Shown here: piece by piece, positions 3,197-41,887 of the stretch
Position numbering within the stretch: the stretch's first letter is position 1
Layout: each line of letters opens with the position of its first letter
Assembly (NCBI GenBank): GCA_027485045.1
Contig: JAIXRU010000104.1
Coordinates: 1-41,887, forward strand
Length of the DNA: 41,887 nt
Direction: 5' to 3'
Origin: Opitutaceae bacterium
Lineage (GTDB): Bacteria; Verrucomicrobiota; Verrucomicrobiia; Opitutales; Opitutaceae
Notes under the pieces: model-generated
The model's database searches: none
The model's input: only the letters and a program-made list of their open reading frames with translations
What the model was told of the DNA's origin: nothing
Made by a program: the position numbers and the translations under genes

Positions 3197-3287
3197 GCGA
3201 ATTTTTACGGCGTTGAGCCCGGTTTCTCTGCGTTTGCATTGTCGCGCGCATCGGTGCTCTCTTGCCCGCCACAAGTTTCGTTAATAC

Positions 3288-4847
3288 GTGAAAATCTCAT
3301 CATTCAAATCTCTTGTTCTGGCTGGCCTTGGCTGGAGTGCCGCTTGGTTGCTCCTGCCGGTATCACCGGTTACCGCTGCGATCGAACGCCTGGAGGTCAC
3401 CTATGATTATGTCGGTGGTCTGGCGGCGGAACGCGCCGCCGCACCCTATAAGGAGCCGGATCGTGAGCTGCCGAAGCGGCTCGCCGAACTAAACTACGAC
3501 GAGATTCGCGACATCCGCTTCCGGCCTGACCAGGCGCTCTGGCGTAACGAGGCTCTCCCGTTTCAATTGCACCTCTTCCATCGCACGGCGGCGGTGCGCG
3601 AGGCGGTGCAGATACGCGAGTTCAGCTCCACCCATGTGCAGACGATTCCGTTTATCCGGGACTTTTTTGATTACGGAAAACTGGGCAACATGGGTTCCCT
3701 GCGGTCCTCTTTGGGTTACTCCGGGTTTCGTCTGCACTACCCGTTGAACCGGCCGGACACCTTCGATGAAGTGGTGGTTTTCCATGGCGCGTCCTATTTC
3801 CGTGCGCTGGGGGCGGGGCAGATTTACGGGCTGTCGGCCCGCGGTTTGGCGGTGGATTCCGGCGTGCCGGGGGTGACCGAGGAGTTTCCGGTGTTTACCG
3901 ATTTTTGGATCGGGAAACCGCGTCTGGGTGCGACCAACATCACGGTTTATGCGTTGCTTGACAGCAAGCGTATCACCGGGGCTTACGAATTCATCATCCG
4001 GCCCGGGCACCCTACGGTGGTGGACGTGCGCGCCCGCCTTTATGCGCGTGAAGCGATCGGACTGCCGGGCATGGCGCCGCTGACCAGCATGTTTTGGTTT
4101 GGGAAAAACTCGGATCGTCCTTCCGGGGACGTACGTCCGCAGGTGCACGATTCGGATGGTTTGTTGCTGCACACCGCAGACGGGGCGCATCTGTGGCGTC
4201 CCTTGCAGAATCCCCGCTTCATCTTGAACACGGATTTGCGGGCGGTGAAGCCGACCCGTTTCGGGTTGATCCAGCGCGAGCGCGCGATTTCGGCCTACGA
4301 GGATTTTGAGGCGCGTTATCACGAGCGCCCGAGTTGCTGGATCGAACCGGTGGGGGATTGGGGTGGCGGGCAGGTGCGGTTGGTCGAGTTGCCCACGGTC
4401 AACGAATATGGCGATAACGTAGTGGCTTATTGGGTGCCGGATAAGAAGCCGGAGCCGGGTAAACCGTTTGAGTTGGCTTACCGGATGAAGTGGTCGCTGG
4501 AGCAACCCGGCGATGATAACCTCGCCCGGGTGGTGTCCACCCGCATCGGCCATCTGCCGGACGGCGGTTGGGGACAACTCTTCTGGATCGATTTTGCCGG
4601 GGCGGGAATCGGGCAGCGGAATCCCGCGAACCTTACGCCTCAGATCGACCTCGCGCCAGGGGCGAAGCTGCGGCACCAGACCATTATTCCCCATCCCGGT
4701 ATCGACGGCTGGCGCGTGGCTTTGCAGATCGAAGGTGAGAACCCGCCCCCTCCCGGGGAGAAACCCAAGCCGGTGGAACTTCGCGTGCGTTTGCGGGATG
4801 GCTACGAGCCGATCTCAGAGACCTGGGTTTACACCTGGCTGCCATGA
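3288..4847 (+). CDS. opgG: Periplasmic glucan biosynthesis protein, OpgG/MdoG family
   Basis: Signal peptide, then MdoG-type motifs (LFHRTAAVREAVQIREFSS, NEYGDNVVAYWVPDKKPEPGKPFELAYRMKW, GDWGGGQVRLVELPT). GTG start. Confidence 0.9.
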   Translation: MKISSFKSLVLAGLGWSAAWLLLPVSPVTAAIERLEVTYDYVGGLAAERAAAPYKEPDRELPKRLAELNYDEIRDIRFRPDQALWRNEALPFQLHLFHRTAAVREAVQIREFSSTHVQTIPFIRDFFDYGKLGNMGSLRSSLGYSGFRLHYPLNRPDTFDEVVVFHGASYFRALGAGQIYGLSARGLAVDSGVPGVTEEFPVFTDFWIGKPRLGATNITVYALLDSKRITGAYEFIIRPGHPTVVDVRARLYAREAIGLPGMAPLTSMFWFGKNSDRPSGDVRPQVHDSDGLLLHTADGAHLWRPLQNPRFILNTDLRAVKPTRFGLIQRERAISAYEDFEARYHERPSCWIEPVGDWGGGQVRLVELPTVNEYGDNVVAYWVPDKKPEPGKPFELAYRMKWSLEQPGDDNLARVVSTRIGHLPDGGWGQLFWIDFAGAGIGQRNPANLTPQIDLAPGAKLRHQTIIPHPGIDGWRVALQIEGENPPPPGEKPKPVELRVRLRDGYEPISETWVYTWLP

Positions 4848-5452
4848 ACGACGCCGGTATTTCCCCGACGATGAAGGGCAACACGCTGGACGACGCCATC
4901 GGCCCGGCCTGGGATGAGGCATTTCTCCGGGTGGAGAGTTATCTGCGTGCGCACCAAATCGAAAGCCGGCTGGTGTTGAATCGCCTGACGATGGAGATCG
5001 TACGTTCGGCGGTGCGTGCCGCGGAAGTGGATACGGTTGCGGGTGGCAAGCTCGATCCGGTGGCGTATGCGATGCACGAGGCGGAGCGCCGCACCACCTC
5101 TTGGTTTCAAAAGGTACTGGGTGACGCCGCCGATCCCGAGGATGAGCGCCTCGGCACCCGAGGCCGCATCGCGCTGGTGATGGCGGATGTGCCGGCGCGC
5201 TGGCCCCAGCATTTCCTGGCCGAGACCCGGCCCCCGACGGAACTGATCGAGGCGATGCGGGCCGCCTACATCGAGGCGGGACCGGAGATGGAGCTGACGC
5301 GCATGGTGCCGCGGCCCTTGGATTTCGGCCCGATTGCCAACGTGGCCGACGAGGCCTGGAAAACGTTTGCGCGCTGGCCCATCCTGCGCGCGGTTTTGGG
5401 CTGGATCCTGTTTCTTGGCCTGCTCGCGCTGATTTGGCATTTCACCCACTGA
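4844..5452 (+). CDS. Hypothetical protein with C-terminal TM, between opgG and opgH
   Basis: ATGA overlap with opgG; C-terminal hydrophobic helix (VLGWILFLGLLALIWHFTH). Confidence 0.75.
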   Translation: MNDAGISPTMKGNTLDDAIGPAWDEAFLRVESYLRAHQIESRLVLNRLTMEIVRSAVRAAEVDTVAGGKLDPVAYAMHEAERRTTSWFQKVLGDAADPEDERLGTRGRIALVMADVPARWPQHFLAETRPPTELIEAMRAAYIEAGPEMELTRMVPRPLDFGPIANVADEAWKTFARWPILRAVLGWILFLGLLALIWHFTH

Positions 5453-5493: not shown

Positions 5494-7647
5494 ATGAGCG
5501 TTCCGCGCTTTGACCCCGCCCTACTTGACGGCACCCGAATCACCCAGCGACGCATTCTGGTCGCCACCCTCACGCTGCTCCTGACCGGACCGGCGGTGTT
5601 GCTGATGGCTGATTTGCACTGGCGGGTGGACGCCATCGACGGGCTGAAAATCTTCCACCTGGTGCTGTTCGCGATCTTGTTTTCGCTGGTCTCCTTTGGT
5701 GCGGTGCAAGCGGTGATCGGCTTTTTTTGCCGGGCGGGAAAGGGGGATCCCAACCGTATCATGGCGAGCCTTACGCCCGAGGACGAGGCTAGGCCGGTGG
5801 ATGCGCCGACGGCGATTGTGATGCCGATTTTTAACGAGGATACCTCCCGTATCATGGAGGGTTTGCGGGTGATTTACCGTTCGCTGGAAGCCACGGGACA
5901 GTTGGAGGCGTTCGACTTTTTCATCCTCAGCGACACGACCAATCCGAATCGCTGGATCGAAGAGGAATCGGCCTGGGTGGCCCTGACGCGGCAGCTCGGG
6001 GCACGCGGTCGTATTTTCTACCGCAAGCGTCGGGTTAATTTGAATAAAAAGGCCGGCAACCTGGCGGATTTTTGCCGCCGCTGGGGTCGGCGATATCGCT
6101 ACATGGTGGTGCTGGACGCGGACAGCGTGATGAGTGGGGACGCCATCGTGAAGCTGGTGCGTTTGATGGAGCGCAATCCGGGGGCGGGCATTATCCAGAC
6201 CGTGCCTCGATTGGTTAACGGAGAGACGGTTTTCGCACGACTTCAGCAATTTGCCTCGCGCCTATATGGGCCGATTTTTGCGGCGGGCTTGAACTTCTGG
6301 CAGCAAGGCGAGGCCAATTATTGGGGTCACAACGCTATCATCCGCGTGGCGCCCTTTATCGATCAGTGCTCTCTGCCCGAGCTGCCCGGGGTGGAGCCTT
6401 TTGGCGGGCGTATTTTGAGCCACGACTATGTGGAGGCAGCTTTGATGCGTCGGGCGGGCTGGTCGGTCTGGCTGGCGGTCGGTTTGGAAGGCAGCTACGA
6501 GGAATGTCCCGGGAATTTGATCGATTTCGCCAAACGTGACCGGCGTTGGTTGCAGGGGAATTTACAGCATTCCTGGCTGGTTACGGCGCGAGGTTTACAC
6601 GCGGCCAATCGTCTGCACCTGGCGCTTGGGATACTGGCTTACCTGGCCTCGCCGCTCTGGTTGACGTTTTTGTTGGTATCGTCGGTCATCGCCTGGCGCT
6701 ACGCGGCTACCGGCTTGACGCCCTTGCCGGTCGATAGTTTTGCGCGGTATCTCCGCCTCGATTTTAATTCGCAGGCCTTGCTCTTGTTTGCGGCGACGAT
6801 GGGGCTTTTGTTTTTGCCCAAGGTTCTCGCTTTGATTGACCTGCGCCGTATTCCGGGAGAGGTGCAGCGTTTTGGCGGTTGGTTACGGGTTATTGGCAGC
6901 GTGATCACCGAGACGCTGGTATTTACCCTTATGGCGCCGGTGCTTATGTTGTTTCATTCCAAGTTCATCGTTCTGACTTTGGCGGGTCGGGGGGTGGCTT
7001 GGGTGGCGCAGCGACGCGGGGCTGATGGGGATCCGGAATGGCGCGAGGCTATTCTTACTCATGCGGGGCATACGGTGGTTGGGTTGGGTTGGGGGTGGTT
7101 TGCGCTTTGGGTGAACCCCGCGTTCGCGGCCTGGATGGCTCCGATTTTGCTGGGGATGATGAGTTCGATACCTATCTCACTGGTCACCGGTCAGTTGGCG
7201 GCCGGGCAGTTTATCCGTAAACTGCGTTTATTCGTGACGCCGGAGGAATCGGCTGAACCGCCCGAGTTGACGCGTCTGGCGCGCAATTTGGAGGCCTGCC
7301 GTCGCCATACCCCGCCTTTGCCGGAACTCGCGGCCGATTATGGTCTGATGCAGGCGGTGCTGGATCCATACGTAAATGCCGTTCATTTAGCGCTTTTGCG
7401 TGAACGTGATCTTACCCCGGTGGCGGAGGGGCGATTCGGGCCTTTGCGGGAAAAACTGCTGGGCGAGGGTCCGTCGGCGCTGGCTTCGCGCGATAAATTA
7501 GCGCTGATGTTGGATGCGGATTCTATGGCGATCCTGCATCGCGAGCTTTGGTCGAGACCGGCGGACCGCTTGGCTGCTTGGTGGCGCACATCGATCCGGG
7601 CTTACAACGTGATCGCGCCCGCGCCTCAGACTGCGCTTTATCGATAA
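5494..7647 (+). CDS. opgH: Membrane glucosyltransferase, OpgH/MdoH family
   Basis: GT2-like core (IVMPIFNEDTSRIMEGLRVIYRS, LDADSVMSGDAIVKLVRLMERNP, KRDRRWLQGNLQH) with multiple TM helices. ATG at 5494 preferred over 5434. Confidence 0.92.
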   Translation: MSVPRFDPALLDGTRITQRRILVATLTLLLTGPAVLLMADLHWRVDAIDGLKIFHLVLFAILFSLVSFGAVQAVIGFFCRAGKGDPNRIMASLTPEDEARPVDAPTAIVMPIFNEDTSRIMEGLRVIYRSLEATGQLEAFDFFILSDTTNPNRWIEEESAWVALTRQLGARGRIFYRKRRVNLNKKAGNLADFCRRWGRRYRYMVVLDADSVMSGDAIVKLVRLMERNPGAGIIQTVPRLVNGETVFARLQQFASRLYGPIFAAGLNFWQQGEANYWGHNAIIRVAPFIDQCSLPELPGVEPFGGRILSHDYVEAALMRRAGWSVWLAVGLEGSYEECPGNLIDFAKRDRRWLQGNLQHSWLVTARGLHAANRLHLALGILAYLASPLWLTFLLVSSVIAWRYAATGLTPLPVDSFARYLRLDFNSQALLLFAATMGLLFLPKVLALIDLRRIPGEVQRFGGWLRVIGSVITETLVFTLMAPVLMLFHSKFIVLTLAGRGVAWVAQRRGADGDPEWREAILTHAGHTVVGLGWGWFALWVNPAFAAWMAPILLGMMSSIPISLVTGQLAAGQFIRKLRLFVTPEESAEPPELTRLARNLEACRRHTPPLPELAADYGLMQAVLDPYVNAVHLALLRERDLTPVAEGRFGPLREKLLGEGPSALASRDKLALMLDADSMAILHRELWSRPADRLAAWWRTSIRAYNVIAPAPQTALYR

Positions 7648-7863
7648 CGCATAAGACTGATCTTTGATGCCGGACGGCCTGCGTTCTTGGGCTTAATTCA
7701 AGCTACGCTCTCGCGAAGCACGGACTGATTTATTGCATAGCAATGTACCGATATACTTGAACTTAATTTTCTTTGGTTTCCATTTGCTGAGGATCTATTT
7801 TCTACTTCAGAGTGATTGTCCGCTTAACCCCTTTTAAGGCGGAAAAATCCCATCTCTGCGTCC

Positions 7864-10782
7864 GTGTCTGCGAAAATACTTTTAGTCCGTACAGGTCCCA
7901 GTGTCTTCAGCGCCAAGGCTTACGTGGCGGTGGAGAGTGGTTTGTATGCCCGCGACATAGAATCCCCGAGCGACTTGGAAAGTTCGCTTAAGTCGGAGCA
8001 GTTCGACTTGGTTATTCATGATGGTTCCAAGCTAGGCAAAGAGCCCTTGGGTTTGGCCGAAAGTGTACGCGCGCATCAACGTAGCGCGCCGATTTTGTTG
8101 CTCTGCGATAAGCAGGATATGGACGTGATCGTGCGGGCGATCCGGTTGGGTGTACGGGATTTGTTTAACCCGCCAATTAATCTGACGGCGTTTTTCGCCA
8201 GAGCGACGGAACTACTTCAACCGCGGTTAAACGGGCACGCCAATGTAGTCGCGCAGCATTGTCGTCAGGAGATGACCCTGTTTTTGGCGGGGGAAGCACG
8301 GCCGCCCTCCACCCAGCCCTTTGTGCAGAAAGGCGTTGCCAACGCAGAGCTCACTTCGCTCCGCGCAGAGTGCGACCGTTTACACCAGCAACTTAAACAA
8401 GAGAGCGACCGGCATGCCGAGGTCGAGCGCACTTTTAAAATTCAGCAAGAGACGCTCGATAAGCGGGAAAACGAGCTCGCTTTGGCCGATGCCGAAATCG
8501 CGACTGAACGGGCTCGGATTGATACCGAGCGGGCGCAGGCAGTGGCCGCGATGGCGCAAGTCGAGACGCGAAAGCTGGAGCTGCAACGCCGCGCTGATGA
8601 GTTGGTAAATGCCGACAAGTCCCTCGGTCCCTTGCGTCAAGAGATTGAGCGGGCGAAGGCTGCCTTGGTTGAGGATCAAGCGAAGTTGGAGACCGAGCGG
8701 CAGCAGCTCACGGAGCGCGAAATGGAGTTGGAGGCCGCGCAAATCGCGGCCGCGCAAGCCAAGGCGGCGGCGGACAAAGTAGCGCAGCTTCGCCTGGCGC
8801 TGGAAGCTGAGCGAACGGTTTGGCAAAAGGAGCAGCGCGCGGATCGCCAAGCAATCGCCGCCGAGGAGACGCGTCTAGCGGCGGAGGCTGAGGAACTGAA
8901 AACGGCTCAAGCGAATGCGGCGGACGCTTTGGCGGCGCATAAAAAGCGTCTCGCGGAGATAACCAAAGCCGAGCGCGAGTTGGAGGATCGCGAAACGGCC
9001 ATTATCGAAGCACAGCGCGGCTTGGAAACCGAGCGGCAACGTCTCACCGCACAGGAGACTGCGCTTAGCCAACGCGAGATCAAAGCCGCTCAGTCTCTCA
9101 AAGAAGCAGAGCTAGCAGCCCAAAAATTAGGGGCCGATTTAAAGCGTCTGGAACAGCGCCAGGCCGAAATCTCGGACAGCGAAGCCTTGTTGCGAAAAGA
9201 ACAAGCCCGCATCGAGGACGAACTCGCCGCCCTTAAAGCCGATCAAAAATCGTTTAAGGTAGAAAAAACTCAGGCGGATAAAACGTTCAAACAAGCGGCG
9301 GAGACGGCGGTAGAGCTTGATGCCAAGAGTGCCGAACTGAAGGCGTTGGAGAAGCGGCTGGCCGAGGCTGAGGCCGCCCAAACCAAGGCGCTGAGCGAGC
9401 GCGAAGCCAAGCTGGTGGTCCGTGAAGCGGCGGCGGAGAAATTTGACCAAAGAGAAGCCGAGCTGGGAGCGGCCGAGGCCGAGATGTCGAGCCAGCGCGC
9501 GGCCAGCGAAGCCGAGCGCAAAAAGCTCAAGCAGCAAGCAGCGCAGATCGAGTCCGAGGGCGAAGCGCTTACGGTGAAGAAGGCCGACGCGGCCCGGACG
9601 CTCGCCGAGGCGGCTGAGCTTGAGGCCCAGCTCAATAAGAAAAATGCCGAACTGACGGCGTTGGAGAAACAGTTGGCCGAGGCGGAGGCCGCCCAAACCA
9701 AGGCGCTGAGCGAGCGGGAAGCCAAGCTGGTGGAGCGTGAAGCGGCGGCGGAAAAATTTGACCAAAGAGAAGCCGAGCTGGGAGCGGCTGAGGCCGAGAT
9801 GTCGAGCCAGCGAGCGGCCATCGAAGCCGAGCGCCAAAAGCTCAATAATCAAGCGGCGCAGATCGAGTCCGAGGGCGAAGCGCTTGCGGTGGAGAAGGCC
9901 GACGCGGCCCGGACGTTTGCCCAGGCTTCCGAGCGTGAGGCCCAGCTCAACCAGAAAGGTGCCGAACTGGCTGCGCTGGAGAAACGGTTGGCCGAGGCGG
10001 AGGCCGCCCAAGCCAAGGCGCAACATGAACGCGAAGCCAAGCTGGTGGCGCGTGAGCAAGCGGCGGAAAAACTCGACGAACGCGAAGCGGCGCTGGGTTT
10101 GGCCGAGGCTGAGATTTCCGCCGCGAAGGCCGAGCTAAAGGGGGCGCGCCAGAAGCTGCAGCAAGAACAAGAAAGTTTCACCGCCGAGCATGCCGAGCTG
10201 GAGGCCGCCCAGGCCGCTCATCGGACGCTCGTGCAGAGCCAGTCCGCCCGGGAAAAGGCGCTGGCTCTCCGGGAAAAGGAAGTCACCCAGCAAGCCGCAG
10301 CCTTGGCGGCGTCAGCACAAGCGCAGGAAGAAGCCGCGACGGAGTTGGTTAACCGGGAAAAACTCCTGGCCGAACGCGACGCTCCCTTGAACGCAAAGGC
10401 GGCTGAATTGACTGCATTGGAGAAACGGCTGGCGTCCGAGAAGTCCGCCTTGGCCTCGGAGCGTGCGCGGTTTGAGGCTGATCTGGCCGGTATCGAGGAA
10501 GCCCAGACTGAAATCGCTCTGCGCGAAAAGGCGCTTAAGCGGGCCAAGGACCAATTGGTGGTGGCAGAGTCGGAAATCTCCGCAGGTAACGAGGAATTGG
10601 GCGCGGCGCGGGAGGCGTTTGCGGCCGAACGCGCCAGCTTGAACAAGCGGGCCATGGAGCTGAGCATGGAACGCGAGGCGTTCGAGGCGGAAGTGGCGAG
10701 CATGGCCGTTCGCGAAAAAGAATTCGCGGCCAAGCGCCAGCAATTGCAGGAGACGATGAAGTCTTTGCTTAAGTCTGGCTAA
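7864..10782 (+). CDS. Giant coiled-coil protein with N-terminal degenerate receiver-like domain; GTG start
   Basis: N-terminus KILLVRTGP...FDLVIHDGS...APILLLCDKQDMDVIVRAIRLGVRDLFNPP resembles CheY fold; residues ~160-970 are Ala/Glu/Gln/Lys-rich coiled coil. Confidence 0.8.
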   Translation: MSAKILLVRTGPSVFSAKAYVAVESGLYARDIESPSDLESSLKSEQFDLVIHDGSKLGKEPLGLAESVRAHQRSAPILLLCDKQDMDVIVRAIRLGVRDLFNPPINLTAFFARATELLQPRLNGHANVVAQHCRQEMTLFLAGEARPPSTQPFVQKGVANAELTSLRAECDRLHQQLKQESDRHAEVERTFKIQQETLDKRENELALADAEIATERARIDTERAQAVAAMAQVETRKLELQRRADELVNADKSLGPLRQEIERAKAALVEDQAKLETERQQLTEREMELEAAQIAAAQAKAAADKVAQLRLALEAERTVWQKEQRADRQAIAAEETRLAAEAEELKTAQANAADALAAHKKRLAEITKAERELEDRETAIIEAQRGLETERQRLTAQETALSQREIKAAQSLKEAELAAQKLGADLKRLEQRQAEISDSEALLRKEQARIEDELAALKADQKSFKVEKTQADKTFKQAAETAVELDAKSAELKALEKRLAEAEAAQTKALSEREAKLVVREAAAEKFDQREAELGAAEAEMSSQRAASEAERKKLKQQAAQIESEGEALTVKKADAARTLAEAAELEAQLNKKNAELTALEKQLAEAEAAQTKALSEREAKLVEREAAAEKFDQREAELGAAEAEMSSQRAAIEAERQKLNNQAAQIESEGEALAVEKADAARTFAQASEREAQLNQKGAELAALEKRLAEAEAAQAKAQHEREAKLVAREQAAEKLDEREAALGLAEAEISAAKAELKGARQKLQQEQESFTAEHAELEAAQAAHRTLVQSQSAREKALALREKEVTQQAAALAASAQAQEEAATELVNREKLLAERDAPLNAKAAELTALEKRLASEKSALASERARFEADLAGIEEAQTEIALREKALKRAKDQLVVAESEISAGNEELGAAREAFAAERASLNKRAMELSMEREAFEAEVASMAVREKEFAAKRQQLQETMKSLLKSG
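9331..10140 (+). repeat. In-frame tandem repeat, 315-bp period (105 aa), about 2.6 copies, within the coiled-coil gene
   Basis: Unit starts at GCCGAACTG at 9331, 9646 and 9961 (spacing 315 each); shared ALEKxLAEAEAAQtKAlsEREAKLVxREaAAEKfDqREAeLGaAEAEmS. Confidence 0.85.
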
Positions 10783-36219: not shown

Positions 36220-36411
36220 ATGGATTTTATTAATTTTAACTCCGAAAAATTCCTGGCGTTCAAATCTCTTTGGATTTGGGGTCTCTTCGCCTCCAGCGTG
36301 ATCGTGGAGACAGCTTCTTTAGTGGTGGTTTTTTGCTTCGGTGTTAACGTTATACAATGCCTGCCTGATAAAACACGTCTGAATTGCCGGAGCGTATGGC
36401 GTTTTCTATAA
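36220..36411 (+). pseudogene. Remnant paralog of the N-terminus of the downstream kinase
   Basis: MDFINFNSEKFLAFKSLWIWGLFASSVIVETASLVVVF aligns with MKFIKFLSERLKALKSPWILGFYIPCAVLATASIVGTL of the 36513 ORF. Confidence 0.55.
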
Positions 36412-36512: not shown

Positions 36513-38756
36513 ATGAAATTTATTAAATTTTTATCTGAAAGGTTAAAGGCACTTAAATCCCCTTGGATCTTGGGGTTTTATATTCCTTGTGCAGTCTTGG
36601 CGACGGCTTCTATAGTCGGAACCCTGCATTATACTGGTATTATTAATAAGTCGTTGTCCACCGCTCAAGGCACGACTGGCGTGGCCTCGCGTATTAGTTC
36701 ATTAGGGGAGCAAATAACTAAGTCTGTACTATTGATTGAGAAGGCCGTTCGTGACGAGCAGCCCGTGTCCAAGCCAGTTTATGAATTGCAAGTCGCGGCT
36801 GACCGGCTCGACCAAATCATCAATGCCTTTAATGAAGGTTCCGAAACGGTGGCTCCTGATGGCATGAGGTTTATGCTTGAGGCAGTTTCTGATGAGGCGA
36901 ATATGGCTGTTTTGCAGGAGATGAATGTAATCTGGGTCGGTATTAAAACCCGGGCCGACGCCGTTGTTCTGGCTTCAGGACCTAAGAAGGCCGTGACAGA
37001 CGCGATGTCATTCGATCAAAAAACGTTATCTGAAGCAGCTAGTTTCGTGGCTGCTCAACAAACGCGTTTGGCTGAGAGCAGTCTGGCATTCAGCCGGAAT
37101 TTGGAAAAGCAGTTTACAACCCGGGCATTGCAATTAGAGTTTTATCGTAATACATTAACTATATCGGGCGTTGTTTCTCTATTGGCGCTTCCCGCTGTAT
37201 TTATCGTTAATCGGGCGAGAAGAGCGCGCAACGCGGCGAACCGTCTGGCTGCTGAGTTGAGTATTAATCAGGGCGAGTTGGAGACGAAATCTCGGGCCTT
37301 AGCGGTTGCTAAAGTGGAGACTGATCGAATCATGGAAACGATTCAGGAGGGCTTGATGCTGGTGGATGCGCAAGGAGTGATCGGAGCGCAGCACTCGCGC
37401 GAGCTGGAAGTGATTCTTCGCAGTGATAATTTATCCGGAGCGAACCTGCTGCATATCTTGCAACGCTTGCTTTCGGAGAAAATGTATAAAACCACGAAGG
37501 ATTACTTCGAGCTGCTTTTTGATGCGCGACGCAAGGAAAAGGCGGTAATCAAGGTCAATCCGCTTAGTGATATAGAAGTTAGTTTCGCCAATCCTGAAGG
37601 AGGCTTTATTCACCGCCATTTAGGCTTTAGCTTCCGACGGATTATTGAGGGCGATAAGGTGGACCGAGTCTTCGTGGCGGTGCGCGACATCACGGGACAG
37701 GTCGAACTGGAAAAACGTTTGCGGGATGCGGAAAAGCTCAAGGAACGCCAGTTGGAGATTCTACTCGGGATTGTACATGCCTCCTCGGAGGATTTGGTGG
37801 GCTTTACCGAGTTGGCCGAGCGCGAGTTGAATGCGATTAACGCAGCTTTGCGGGCCGAGGACTTCGCCTCTCCTGTCCCCGATCGTCAGAAGCATCTGCA
37901 TGAGCGTCTTATGGTGGTGTTTCGCTCCATTCACAACATCAAGGGCAATGCCAGTTTCCTCCGGCTCGAGTACTTCCAGAAAGCGGCTGATGCGTTTGAG
38001 ACCAAGGTCTCTGAATTGCTGCAACGTCCCATCTTGGGCGGGGACGACTTTTTATCGATCGTAGTGGCGCAGGCAAATTTACGGACAGATCTGAGTGATT
38101 TGCTTGAGCTACAAGGCAAGCTCACCGGATTGCGTTCCCAGGGCGGTGTATCCACCGTTTCCGCCAGTCCGGCGGTAAATCAAGAGGGTATGTCGGAAGG
38201 GCTGCGTAAACTTGCGCAACAGTTGGCCTCCGAGTTGGGTAAGGAAATCGATTTTCAAGTGGATGCGCATGCAGTTCAGGCAGTAGCGGCTTTCCGTTGC
38301 GATCTGGTGCGTGATATTTTGATCCAGTTAATTCGCAACTCTTTGGCGCACGGGATTGAGCTTCCGACCGAACGCGAGGCGGCGGGTAAGCCCCGTGTCG
38401 CCCGGCTGTGGTTGCGTGCCGCGCCACGTCGGGATGATGGCTTGGTGGGGCTGGCGTTGCGGGACGACGGTCGAGGCCTTGATATCAAACGGATTCGGGA
38501 ACGCGCCCGAAGCGCTGGTTTGATTACCGAGGGGATTGATCTACCGGCTGGCGAGCTGGCCCGACTAATCTTTTCCGCTGGTTTTTCCACCGCCGAGAAG
38601 GCGGATCTCAATGCCGGTCGTGGCGTTGGATTGGACCTGCTGAAAACCCGTGTTGTCGACGAAATTGGTGGTGAAATCGAAGTCACCACCAGTGCGGGAC
38701 GTTTTTGTGAGTTTACCTTCCATTTGCCTGAAATCCCTGAACTGAGCGTTGTATGA
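36513..38756 (+). CDS. Membrane-bound CheA-like histidine kinase (2 TM, PAS-like, Hpt, CheA-type HATPase)
   Basis: Hpt motif RSIHNIKGNASFLRL (His codon 37932-37934); N-box ILIQLIRNSLAHGIELPTEREAAGK; ALRDDGRGLDIKRI; FSTAEKADLNAGRGVGLDLLKTRVVDEIGGEIEV. Ends right after HATPase, no CheW-like P5 domain. Confidence 0.88.
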   Translation: MKFIKFLSERLKALKSPWILGFYIPCAVLATASIVGTLHYTGIINKSLSTAQGTTGVASRISSLGEQITKSVLLIEKAVRDEQPVSKPVYELQVAADRLDQIINAFNEGSETVAPDGMRFMLEAVSDEANMAVLQEMNVIWVGIKTRADAVVLASGPKKAVTDAMSFDQKTLSEAASFVAAQQTRLAESSLAFSRNLEKQFTTRALQLEFYRNTLTISGVVSLLALPAVFIVNRARRARNAANRLAAELSINQGELETKSRALAVAKVETDRIMETIQEGLMLVDAQGVIGAQHSRELEVILRSDNLSGANLLHILQRLLSEKMYKTTKDYFELLFDARRKEKAVIKVNPLSDIEVSFANPEGGFIHRHLGFSFRRIIEGDKVDRVFVAVRDITGQVELEKRLRDAEKLKERQLEILLGIVHASSEDLVGFTELAERELNAINAALRAEDFASPVPDRQKHLHERLMVVFRSIHNIKGNASFLRLEYFQKAADAFETKVSELLQRPILGGDDFLSIVVAQANLRTDLSDLLELQGKLTGLRSQGGVSTVSASPAVNQEGMSEGLRKLAQQLASELGKEIDFQVDAHAVQAVAAFRCDLVRDILIQLIRNSLAHGIELPTEREAAGKPRVARLWLRAAPRRDDGLVGLALRDDGRGLDIKRIRERARSAGLITEGIDLPAGELARLIFSAGFSTAEKADLNAGRGVGLDLLKTRVVDEIGGEIEVTTSAGRFCEFTFHLPEIPELSVV

Positions 38757-39112
38757 AACTTCTTATTGTTGATGATTCCCTGATTGTACGTCGCGCCATC
38801 GAGCGCACTCTGGCGCGAAGCCGGTTCACCGAGCTAAGGACGGCCAGTAACGGGCGTCTGGCGCTTGAGGAATTTGACCGGTTTCAACCCGATGTGGTTA
38901 CGATGGATATTACCATGCCTGAGATGGACGGCCTTGCCGCGGTTGATGCTATCATCCGACGCGCCCCCGCCACAATTATTCTCGTCGTATCGGCCCTGGC
39001 CGACAAGTCGACTGCGGTGGAGGCGATCAAGCGAGGTGCATCAGGATTTTTGCTCAAGCCCGTCACCGCCCAATCTATTCAAGAAGCCATGGAAGAAGTG
39101 CTTACTGATTGA
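38753..39112 (+). CDS. CheY-like response regulator
   Basis: LLIVDDSLIVRRAIERTL, VVTMDITMPEMDGL, VVSALADKSTAVEAIKRGASGFLLKPV; ATGA overlap with kinase. Confidence 0.95.
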   Translation: MKLLIVDDSLIVRRAIERTLARSRFTELRTASNGRLALEEFDRFQPDVVTMDITMPEMDGLAAVDAIIRRAPATIILVVSALADKSTAVEAIKRGASGFLLKPVTAQSIQEAMEEVLTD

Positions 39113-39155
39113 ACCACAACTTTCTTTGTTTTGCCACCCGCAGTAACTGACTCCT

Positions 39156-39623
39156 ATGGAAGAAAATATTTTAAAGGTATTTGCCTTAAGCACAGCTCGT
39201 TATTTCGACCAAGTCGCTGCTGGCGGAGCGATTCTTGGCACACCCTATCTTCGTGCAGAAGGGGAGCTTGTGGCGCTCGATTATGCCGCGATTATTGGCA
39301 TCTCCGGTGCCTACCATGGAGGGGTTTATTACACGGCCCCTCACGCAAAACTGGAAAAATTATTACCTATAATCGGCGAGGTAACCCCTGATTCGCAACT
39401 ATGTGCGGATTTGATTGGTGAGATTGCCAACAGTATCGCCGGCAATGCGCGCGAGCATTTGGGAGCAGGCTTTATGATTTCCCCGCCGTTTGTTTTGACC
39501 GGACGTTCCGGGGATGTGCAAACACCCAAAGGCACTCCTTGTTATGTATTACCGGTCACGTGGAATGGCCATGTTTCGCGCGTTCTTGTAACGATTGAAT
39601 CAGTCGAGAGGGGCGGCACATGA
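39156..39623 (+). CDS. CheX-like phosphatase family protein, ExxN retained
   Basis: LIGEIANSIAGNAREHLGAGFMISPPFVLTG fits the CheC/CheX/FliY ExxN helix. Confidence 0.75.
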   Translation: MEENILKVFALSTARYFDQVAAGGAILGTPYLRAEGELVALDYAAIIGISGAYHGGVYYTAPHAKLEKLLPIIGEVTPDSQLCADLIGEIANSIAGNAREHLGAGFMISPPFVLTGRSGDVQTPKGTPCYVLPVTWNGHVSRVLVTIESVERGGT

Positions 39624-40081
39624 GTCCGGCTGTATCGGTTGAGCGGGATGCGGGTGTGTTTGTGGATATGGTGGCACGCTGCTTTGAAGTGAGTGGCGGG
39701 GTCGCCCCCGAGCTTACCCCGGCTTCGCTTGAGTGGTCCATGCCCGAGCCCTTGGACACAACGGGTTACATGGCGGTTTCCGGTAACCTGCATGGGTGGA
39801 TTGCCCTGAGTCTTTCGGATGAACTGGCGATTGCGTTACTCGAGGTGATGGGTGAGACGCAGCACGATGAAACGGCCTTGCTGGATCTCACGGCGGAGTT
39901 GACGGGGGTGATCACGTCCAATGCACGCGAGCATTTCGGTGCTCGACTGCAAGTCCTTCCACCCCAGTCCACCCGGACGCGGGGTTTGCCACCGGGATTC
40001 GTGGCTCCGCCGATTTTTTTCAAACTACCGTTTCATTGGCGTGGGGACGAAGCGTTTTTGCTCGTAGCATTCTATTCTTGA
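39620..40081 (+). CDS. CheX-like paralog, ExxN degenerate
   Basis: LTAELTGVITSNAREHFGARLQVLPPQ parallels the upstream CheX but has Gly at the catalytic Asn position; ATGA overlap. Confidence 0.7.
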   Translation: MSPAVSVERDAGVFVDMVARCFEVSGGVAPELTPASLEWSMPEPLDTTGYMAVSGNLHGWIALSLSDELAIALLEVMGETQHDETALLDLTAELTGVITSNAREHFGARLQVLPPQSTRTRGLPPGFVAPPIFFKLPFHWRGDEAFLLVAFYS

Positions 40082-40097
40082 AATCCGTACCGCTACC

Positions 40098-40943
40098 ATG
40101 AAGAAATCTCCTGTAAAAAACTCTAATCAAGACGCTTACGTTCGCGTTCCGGATTACGAGGCCCGGTTGGACGGTTTGGAGTTTCCGCCCGAGGTATGGG
40201 CGGTGTTTGCGCTAATGGAGCGTGCCGTTACCACGCCGGTCTTGGCTGAGAAACTAGGCTTGGAGCCCGATGTGGTGGCCAGTGCGATCCGTCGTTTAGT
40301 GAGGCGCAAGTTAGTGCGGAAGCAGTTGTTGAACTGGCGTGATTATCTGGCGCAGGCACAGCTCTCGCCGAGCAGTGAAGTGACTGAGCCGAAAACGTTT
40401 GAGCCCGCTCCACCCGCCCTGAGTCCGGTCGCGGAATCGCAGCTTGTTTCGGTTTCTTCGGGTGAAGTGATCACGCCGGAGTCTACAGTTGAGGGCTCTG
40501 CTATATCTGAGACCATAGTTCCTAAGGAAGAGCAGCAAGAGGTGATCGTTTCGGTGCGTATCGTGGATGAAGCTGCCACCCAAAAACGGCTTAAGGAGCG
40601 GTCGGATCTGGTGCGGGTGCATCTGGCGGCAGAGCGGACCAGCATTCCACGCATAGCCGCAAAGTCATCGAGTCACGTCGCGACGACAAGTTCTGACACA
40701 GCGGGGTGGCGTTTGAGGCCGTTGCTGGATGCGATTATCGCTCGGTCGGGTGGATTGGCGGGCCAGTTTTTGGTTTACCGCATTTTTCTGCGACTTCCGG
40801 CTGAATTGGTGGCGGCAGCGGGCATTAAATCGCTGAGTTTGGTATCTGATGATTTTAAGATTTATGACCCCCAGCTGAGGGAGGCCATTTGTGAAGCGGC
40901 CCGGGAGATGGCTGGTTTGGAGTTGGCCGAGATTAAGGCCTGA
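40098..40943 (+). CDS. Hypothetical protein with N-terminal winged-helix-like domain
   Basis: EVWAVFALMERAVTTPVLAEKLGLEPDVVASAIRRLVRRKLVRKQLLNW resembles a wHTH; variable linker; conserved-looking C-terminal domain. Confidence 0.6.
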   Translation: MKKSPVKNSNQDAYVRVPDYEARLDGLEFPPEVWAVFALMERAVTTPVLAEKLGLEPDVVASAIRRLVRRKLVRKQLLNWRDYLAQAQLSPSSEVTEPKTFEPAPPALSPVAESQLVSVSSGEVITPESTVEGSAISETIVPKEEQQEVIVSVRIVDEAATQKRLKERSDLVRVHLAAERTSIPRIAAKSSSHVATTSSDTAGWRLRPLLDAIIARSGGLAGQFLVYRIFLRLPAELVAAAGIKSLSLVSDDFKIYDPQLREAICEAAREMAGLELAEIKA

Positions 40944-40969
40944 GAATTGCTACAACTGTTTCTGCCGTT

Positions 40970-41803
40970 ATGAGACTTACCTTAATTCAGCAGCCGATTA
41001 AGGGGGAAGTATGTGATGCTGGCTATGCCGTCCGGCATTTTTGGTTTGGCGACCAGTTCGATCCACCCCGTGGAGGAGCATTGGATTTGTTGTTGTTGGA
41101 TGCGCGTCTGTTAACGCCGGAAGCACTACGCGCCGCGCTGCTACACGTGGCGGCCATTCGTCAGGCGCACTCTTTTCGCTTGGCGGTCATGATTTGGCCT
41201 TCGCCGACGCTGGAGTTGACGGTCTTGGCTTTGCGTTCCGGGATCCGCGACGTTTTGGTTTCCTTGCCTACATTACGGAAGACCTTGCGGCTGCTGAGGA
41301 AGGCGCTGCCCCCTGGGCGGCGTTCGCGTTCTCACATCCATACACTGTTGGACGCGGGTAGAGTTTTGATTCGGCCCATTTCCGTATCCTCAGAGATCGA
41401 AATGATTTCACGGGATAAACGTGAGACTCAGCGTAAACTCGATGCCTTGGCTCGTGAGGAATTGCGTATTCAGGGCTTACGCGCCTCCATGGAGGCACGG
41501 GAGATTCATTTGAAACGACAGGAGAGCATGTTGAAAAATGAGTTACGCGATTTACAGGAAATGCGGGTCGATTCTCAAAATAATTCCGCAGCGGAGTTGG
41601 GACGTTCTTTTGAGAAGCAGTTGCAGGATTTGTCCGTCTCCTTGGAGCGGAAGGCCCGCGCGCTTGAAGCCCGCGAGCAAATGCTACGCGAGATGGAGGA
41701 GTTAGTGGAAAACGCTGCTTCGCGTGGCTTTTCTGTTCGGAGTGTTACGGGCTCCCCATTCCCATCGACGCAACGAATCAGCAAGCAGCCTACGGCGGCT
41801 TGA
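40970..41803 (+). CDS. Pseudo-receiver plus coiled-coil protein
   Basis: ALDLLLLDARLLTPEAL...VLALRSGIRDVLVSLPTLRKTLRLLRKAL (receiver-like, no KP) then coiled coil RDKRETQRKLDALAREELRIQGLRASMEAREIHLKRQ. Confidence 0.7.
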   Translation: MRLTLIQQPIKGEVCDAGYAVRHFWFGDQFDPPRGGALDLLLLDARLLTPEALRAALLHVAAIRQAHSFRLAVMIWPSPTLELTVLALRSGIRDVLVSLPTLRKTLRLLRKALPPGRRSRSHIHTLLDAGRVLIRPISVSSEIEMISRDKRETQRKLDALAREELRIQGLRASMEAREIHLKRQESMLKNELRDLQEMRVDSQNNSAAELGRSFEKQLQDLSVSLERKARALEAREQMLREMEELVENAASRGFSVRSVTGSPFPSTQRISKQPTAA

Positions 41804-41887
41804 GTGCTGCCGCAGCACCTGCACCAGCGCTAGGGTTTGATGGCTTGGTTCGAGTTTCTCTTCAGACCGTGACGGTTTTGAGCGAGG
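41800..41887 (+). CDS. Possible next gene, truncated by window end
   Basis: Open frame from TTG at 41800 overlapping the upstream TGA: (M)SAAAAPAPALGFDGLVRVSLQTVTVLSE to the window end. Confidence 0.3.
   Translation, partial: MSAAAAPAPALGFDGLVRVSLQTVTVLSE

Follow-up and report, generated by a model that had tools for sequence, protein, structure and literature searches.

What kind of signalling system is encoded where a membrane kinase with a CheA-like core is followed directly by CheY and two CheX genes? The question is raised by a six-gene cassette at the end of the window, by which we mean the whole stretch of DNA analysed, namely the entire 41,887-base contig C108 of an Opitutaceae draft genome (3.45 Mb, 84% complete). 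The original prediction had read these genes as a self-contained phosphorelay unlike any named system and possibly with a non-motility output.

The cassette and its sensor kinase

All six open reading frames were present in the predicted order on the + strand, with ATGA overlaps between the kinase and CheY (at 38753) and between CheX1 and CheX2 (at 39620). With one further ORF upstream, the locus comprises:

36220..36411, + strand: probable kinase-start remnant, a 63-codon ORF similar to the kinase N-terminus over its first 35 residues
36513..38756, + strand: sensor kinase, with a TM segment, PilJ-like helical sensor, second TM segment, linker/PAS-like region, Hpt (His474) and CheA-type HATPase
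38753..39112, + strand: CheY, a single-domain response regulator (Pfam Response_reg E 2.3e-27)
39156..39623, + strand: CheX1 (Pfam CheX E 1.2e-16), catalytic pair E89/N92 intact
39620..40081, + strand: CheX2 (Pfam CheX E 3.3e-9), Glu kept and Gly at the catalytic Asn position
40098..40943, + strand: wHTH protein, with a wHTH, a disordered linker and a conserved C-terminal domain (~201-281)
40970..41803, + strand: pseudo-receiver/coiled-coil protein, a receiver-like domain followed by long helices

The Pfam matches bear out both earlier CheX labels. The last cassette gene stops 84 bp short of the contig end at 41887, and the genes upstream, on the opposite strand, encode an aminotransferase and a class I tRNA synthetase-like protein. 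Promoter and terminator scans of the cassette gave results at chance level only. The cluster had been described as lacking MCP and CheW, which held for the window contig, where neither gene was found, but not for the genome, which carries MCP and CheW genes on other contigs and CheA genes as well.

The kinase has two TM segments, at about residues 17 and 213, and the motifs Hpt His474 (HNIKG), N-box N609, DDGRG 651 and GRGVGLD 702. Because only 45 residues separate GRGVGLD from the C-terminus, it has no CheW-like P5 domain; 23 of 24 local matches had at least 137 residues after P4, which is room for a CheW domain. A CheA-like kinase in a same-genus genome (L037) departs from the other local CheAs in having only 4 residues beyond P4. 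Pfam matches in the window kinase were limited to HATPase_c and a weak Hpt, both of which were found in all homologues (10/10 each), while the Hpt profile weakly matched CheA P1 structures and the NCBIfam CheA model covered P4 only. No Pfam match to the P3 family was detected in the window kinase or its homologues. The spacing from the phosphoacceptor His to the N-box was 134 residues, versus 237-268 in three local CheA-like kinases, and therefore leaves little room for P3; by these measures the kinase appears to lack a P3 dimerisation domain. The predicted TM segments, Hpt, CheA-type HATPase and absence of P5 were thus recovered, but the 'PAS-like' label was not, as no PAS model matched residues 262-400.

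The sensor is better described as PilJ-like. Pfam PilJ matched the sensors of two sister kinases (best E 5e-6) and profile comparison indicated homology between the window-type and PilJ-type sensors (E 8.6e-15), with the window kinase's own sensor falling below the Pfam PilJ match level. The nearest named records of the kinase were one from Opitutaceae and one from a Verrucomicrobia MAG.

Conservation and history of the gene order

In a search across the family, 10/252 Opitutaceae genomes proved to carry the kinase core; ORFs in the GC-rich homologous loci were called by codon usage. The complete six-gene order was present in the window and in L048, L049, L050, L051 and L053; L049 carries the whole cassette in two intact tandem copies. 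Other copies were reduced: L052 has five genes, the last gene not being found, L054 and L080 are without CheX2, and the sequence of L056 breaks off within the kinase. L055, the second copy in genome G135 (kinase at 3241-5406), looks degenerate because the kinase DDG box, CheX2 and the last gene are missing and the wHTH protein is shortened. Outside Opitutaceae, in loci from families f10, f99, f96 and f110 of the same class, the order was kinase-CheY-CheX-wHTH (L079), kinase-CheY-CheX1-CheX2-wHTH (L115, L117 and also L116, whose contig begins inside the kinase) or kinase-CheY-[REC-DUF4388]-CheX-wHTH (L119, L121, L123). L117 has a REC-DUF4388 gene 5' of its kinase as well.

Among the Opitutaceae loci the gene order is conserved, and at least three further families of the class have it too, with unrelated flanks. 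When the flanking genes, which vary among loci, were inspected by eye, no che, fli or pil genes and no MCP were recognised beside the Opitutaceae copies, and no conserved gene followed the last cassette gene in homologous loci. Extending the locus through its homologues therefore revealed a stable gene order and no recognisable standard che/fli genes or MCPs, in keeping with a self-contained kinase-CheY-CheX unit. An ordinary chemotaxis operon was rejected because the kinase has no CheW domain, the contig no MCP and the loci no recognised che/fli neighbours.

The history of the cassette in the window genome may be legible in its composition and upstream sequence. GC3 was 0.45-0.62 in the cassette compared to ~0.72 in the two flanking genes, a thin baseline of two genes only. 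The ORF at 36220-36411 is probably what remains of another copy once in tandem, comparable to the intact tandem cassette in L049: its segment at 36220-36324 aligns with kinase residues 1-35 (BLOSUM62 score 77), and the likeness extends to the DNA. The low GC3 and the kinase N-terminal remnant together suggest that the cassette was acquired and that one tandem copy has since been lost. Taken with the patchy distribution and the degenerate cassette in G135, the same two features could also describe a recent acquisition that does little and is perhaps decaying. We regard this as improbable, since all six window genes are open, the motifs of the kinase, CheY and CheX1 are intact, and homologous copies are under purifying selection. 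Elsewhere in the window, at 6001-10000, AT skew shifts strongly between adjoining 2 kb blocks, from -0.245 to 0.276.

The CheX pair and the proteins encoded beside it

CheY retains D7/D8, the acceptor D52, S80 and K102, and the CheX family profile matches solved CheX structures. In CheX phosphatases the catalytic Asn positions the water for its attack (PMC3035606). Across 35 aligned CheX sequences, Glu and Asn were both kept in 18/18 copies that stand next to a kinase as its sole or first CheX, whereas Asn was lost in 16/16 copies that are either second (n=11) or lone and wHTH-adjacent (n=5), with Asp replacing Glu in three of the five lone copies. Like the T. maritima and B. burgdorferi CheX proteins of the CheX/CheC/FliY phosphatases, CheX1 has the Glu/Asn pair; CheX2 differs from them in being without the Asn. 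With Glu present and Asn changed to Gly, the window CheX2 does not carry the catalytic pair of a CheX phosphatase, and the second CheX is apparently disabled as such an enzyme. It is nonetheless under purifying selection in the homologous copies compared: pN/pS was 0.17-0.46 for CheX2 versus 0.24-0.34 for CheX1 in four comparisons among other genomes' copies, the window copy being left out.

The lone CheX-wHTH pairs were found at L060, L118, L120, L122 and L124, although the upstream sequence is too short to exclude a kinase at L120 and is under 3 kb at L122. A CheX tree, built from a smaller set with L060 as its only lone copy, placed CheX2 in one clade (99/98) that the L060 CheX joins (98/98). 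Further CheX genes occur in other settings. The window genome has a third, standalone CheX (L005:10357-10863; GELTN), adjoining ORFs that by eye are HAD-hydrolase-like and DNA polymerase IV-like; a genome from another family of the phylum encodes a CheX, a CheX-kinase fusion and a CheY (L081:5512-8531); and a Deferribacter plasmid CheX had no adjacent kinase among annotated genes.

Structure prediction gave the wHTH protein two confident modules, at residues ~10-90 and 201-277, joined by a disordered linker. Its wHTH label was upheld by the confident predicted fold of residues 10-90 together with a weak Pfam MarR_2 match at the N-terminus of 10/10 homologues. The C-terminal domain, which belongs to no Pfam family, was present in 16/384 genomes of the class, and the gene lay directly 3' of a CheX in all loci examined, including ten further loci. 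A wHTH-protein homologue used as a query against plasmids returned no match.

These properties bear on whether the output is transcriptional, with CheY~P acting via CheX2 to control DNA binding by the wHTH protein as a gene-expression switch. The confidently predicted wHTH fold, the weak N-terminal matches of all 10 homologues to wHTH models of DNA-binding proteins, MarR-type ones among them, and the constant adjacency of the wHTH gene to CheX would suit such a switch; however, its best Foldseek matches, none of them significant, were wHTHs of protein interaction (SEA/GATOR1 subunits, FAM91A1), and the conserved C-terminal domain falls into no known family. We consider a switch of this kind rather unlikely. 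The apparently disabled CheX and the wHTH/C-domain protein form a candidate output module. It is a tentative possibility that CheX2 is a former phosphatase that now reads CheY~P without hydrolysing it, with the wHTH/C-domain protein as its partner, and that the two make up an effector module also found kinase-free elsewhere in the class.

The last protein of the cassette was predicted to contain a receiver-like fold followed by long helices (mean pLDDT 74.5), in agreement with its earlier pseudo-receiver/coiled-coil label. It is without the acid pair and Lys of receivers and has one invariant Asp44; its best Foldseek matches, HP1043 and the pilus proteins CpaE/TadZ among them, all fell short of significance (E >=0.02).

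Proposed signalling and its relation to known systems

On balance we favour a class III histidine kinase (HKIII)-type sensory system with CheX1 as phosphatase, CheX2 and the wHTH protein as a reader or adaptor step, and the type IV pilus as likeliest target. The sequences themselves show the architecture, the conservation of gene order, the retained catalytic residues and the Asn loss; the direction of phosphate flow, the part played by CheX2 and the pilus as output are inferred. In this scheme the membrane kinase would use a PilJ-like helical domain of its own in the periplasm for sensing, with neither chemoreceptors nor CheW, and its CheA-type ATPase domain would phosphorylate His474 of its Hpt, from which phosphate would move to Asp52 of CheY. 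CheX1 would take the phosphate off CheY. The Asn-less CheX2 probably does not hydrolyse it and may instead bind CheY~P or pair with CheX1, serving with the adjoining wHTH/C-domain protein as the reader or adaptor step, while a role as scaffold or polar adaptor is probable for the pseudo-receiver/coiled-coil protein.

The suggested non-motility output is possible, but the balance of evidence favours type IV pili, which are probably the output rather than flagella. The PilJ-like sensor, the REC-DUF4388 genes of sister cassettes and the existence of carriers without detectable FliG all support the pilus, without proving it. DUF4388 corresponds to the PATAN domain. In cyanobacteria, PATAN domains bind PilB, the motor of the pilus (PMC10519157, PMC12288463, PMC7690835). 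On the other side, the window cassette itself is without a PATAN gene, inspection by eye recognised no pilus gene adjoining any cassette copy, and a wHTH could just as well point to DNA binding. PilT was found in the window genome and in 149/150 Opitutaceae genomes and, being near-universal in the family, discriminates nothing. FliG was not found in G000, G539, G135, G035 and G492. Completeness is 95-96% for three of them, but since these are draft genomes, its absence is no proof.

FliG was present in 6/10 Opitutaceae carrier genomes, and this, with the CheA, CheW and MCP genes elsewhere in the window genome, would be compatible with an accessory branch of ordinary chemotaxis that feeds a shared CheY pool or the flagellum. 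Such a branch is very improbable given that the cassette also occurs where FliG is not detectable, has its own CheY and phosphatase, encodes a kinase without a CheW-binding domain and, in the loci seen, has no che or fli genes recognised beside it.

The HKIII-type reading rests on comparison with a class that Adebali et al. 2017 (J Bacteriol 199:e00218-17) are said to have proposed as modulators of type IV pili. HKIII systems reportedly combine a sensory domain, an Hpt and CheA-type ATPase, no dimerisation domain, a single-domain response regulator and CheX, and many members are said to have a soluble chemoreceptor, which is not obligatory. The link between HKIII and type IV pili is repeated, with the HKIII paper cited, in a passage of PMC6501615. 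In the cassette, two TMs around the PilJ-like region give the kinase its own membrane sensory domain, an Hpt phosphoacceptor is joined to a CheA-type ATPase with no CheW-like P5, and a single-domain response regulator and CheX are present. As judged from domain content, the layout matches this description of HKIII; because that description fits, the combination is not unnamed, contrary to the original prediction. That prediction also did not pick up the missing catalytic Asn of CheX2, the PilJ-like character of the sensor or the remnant of a second kinase start upstream.

Relatives occur on Ideonella, Burkholderia and Caballeronia plasmids, where kinases cover 90-95% of the PAS-like/Hpt/ATPase region (the Burkholderia locus being known as ORFs only). 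The clusters of Ideonella dechloratans (L061) and Caballeronia sp. SBC2 (L063) share the TM sensor, Hpt, HATPase and lack of CheW, with CheX-like proteins downstream, but differ in having a soluble MCP 3' of the kinase (MCPsignal E 6e-15 and 1e-15) and no wHTH protein that could be seen. The Ideonella sensor, which was scanned, is of HAMP + 4HB type, unlike that of the cassette. The Caballeronia downstream protein matches CheX, with a receiver-like-CheX fusion there; the corresponding Ideonella protein has no Pfam match and is CheX-like by position and resemblance only. Near the Ideonella Hpt-kinase cluster lie the reverse transcriptase and Avd genes of a diversity-generating retroelement (L061:12500-15899). 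In a P4 tree, in which the HKIII-like status of comparison kinases was assigned within this analysis, the cassette kinases formed a clade (100/99) that grouped with the beta-proteobacterial kinases at 63/85, and the wider union was not rejected (AU 0.54).

The cyanobacterial PATAN-CheY (PixG, PixE) and Pil-Chp systems likewise connect chemosensory signalling to type IV pili, and it is the sister cassettes that have REC-DUF4388. Those systems use an MCP, CheW and a CheA with a CheW domain, and to our knowledge they have no CheX pair. Compared to HKIII, the cassette shares the sensory domain, the Hpt and CheA-type ATPase, the apparent absence of a dimerisation domain, the single-domain regulator and CheX; it is without the soluble chemoreceptor of many members, none being present on the contig or recognised beside the Opitutaceae copies. 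We know of no established account of how HKIII systems act on their target, and the cassette offers a conserved set of candidate downstream parts for this type of signalling, in which an intact CheX beside an Asn-less one makes a clean natural contrast of phosphatase and putative reader. Relative to HKIII as described above, the cassette adds the CheX pair with one Asn-less member, the wHTH/C-domain protein and the pseudo-receiver/coiled-coil protein, and the new part looks to be this accessory set rather than the cassette overall, which is not categorically new.
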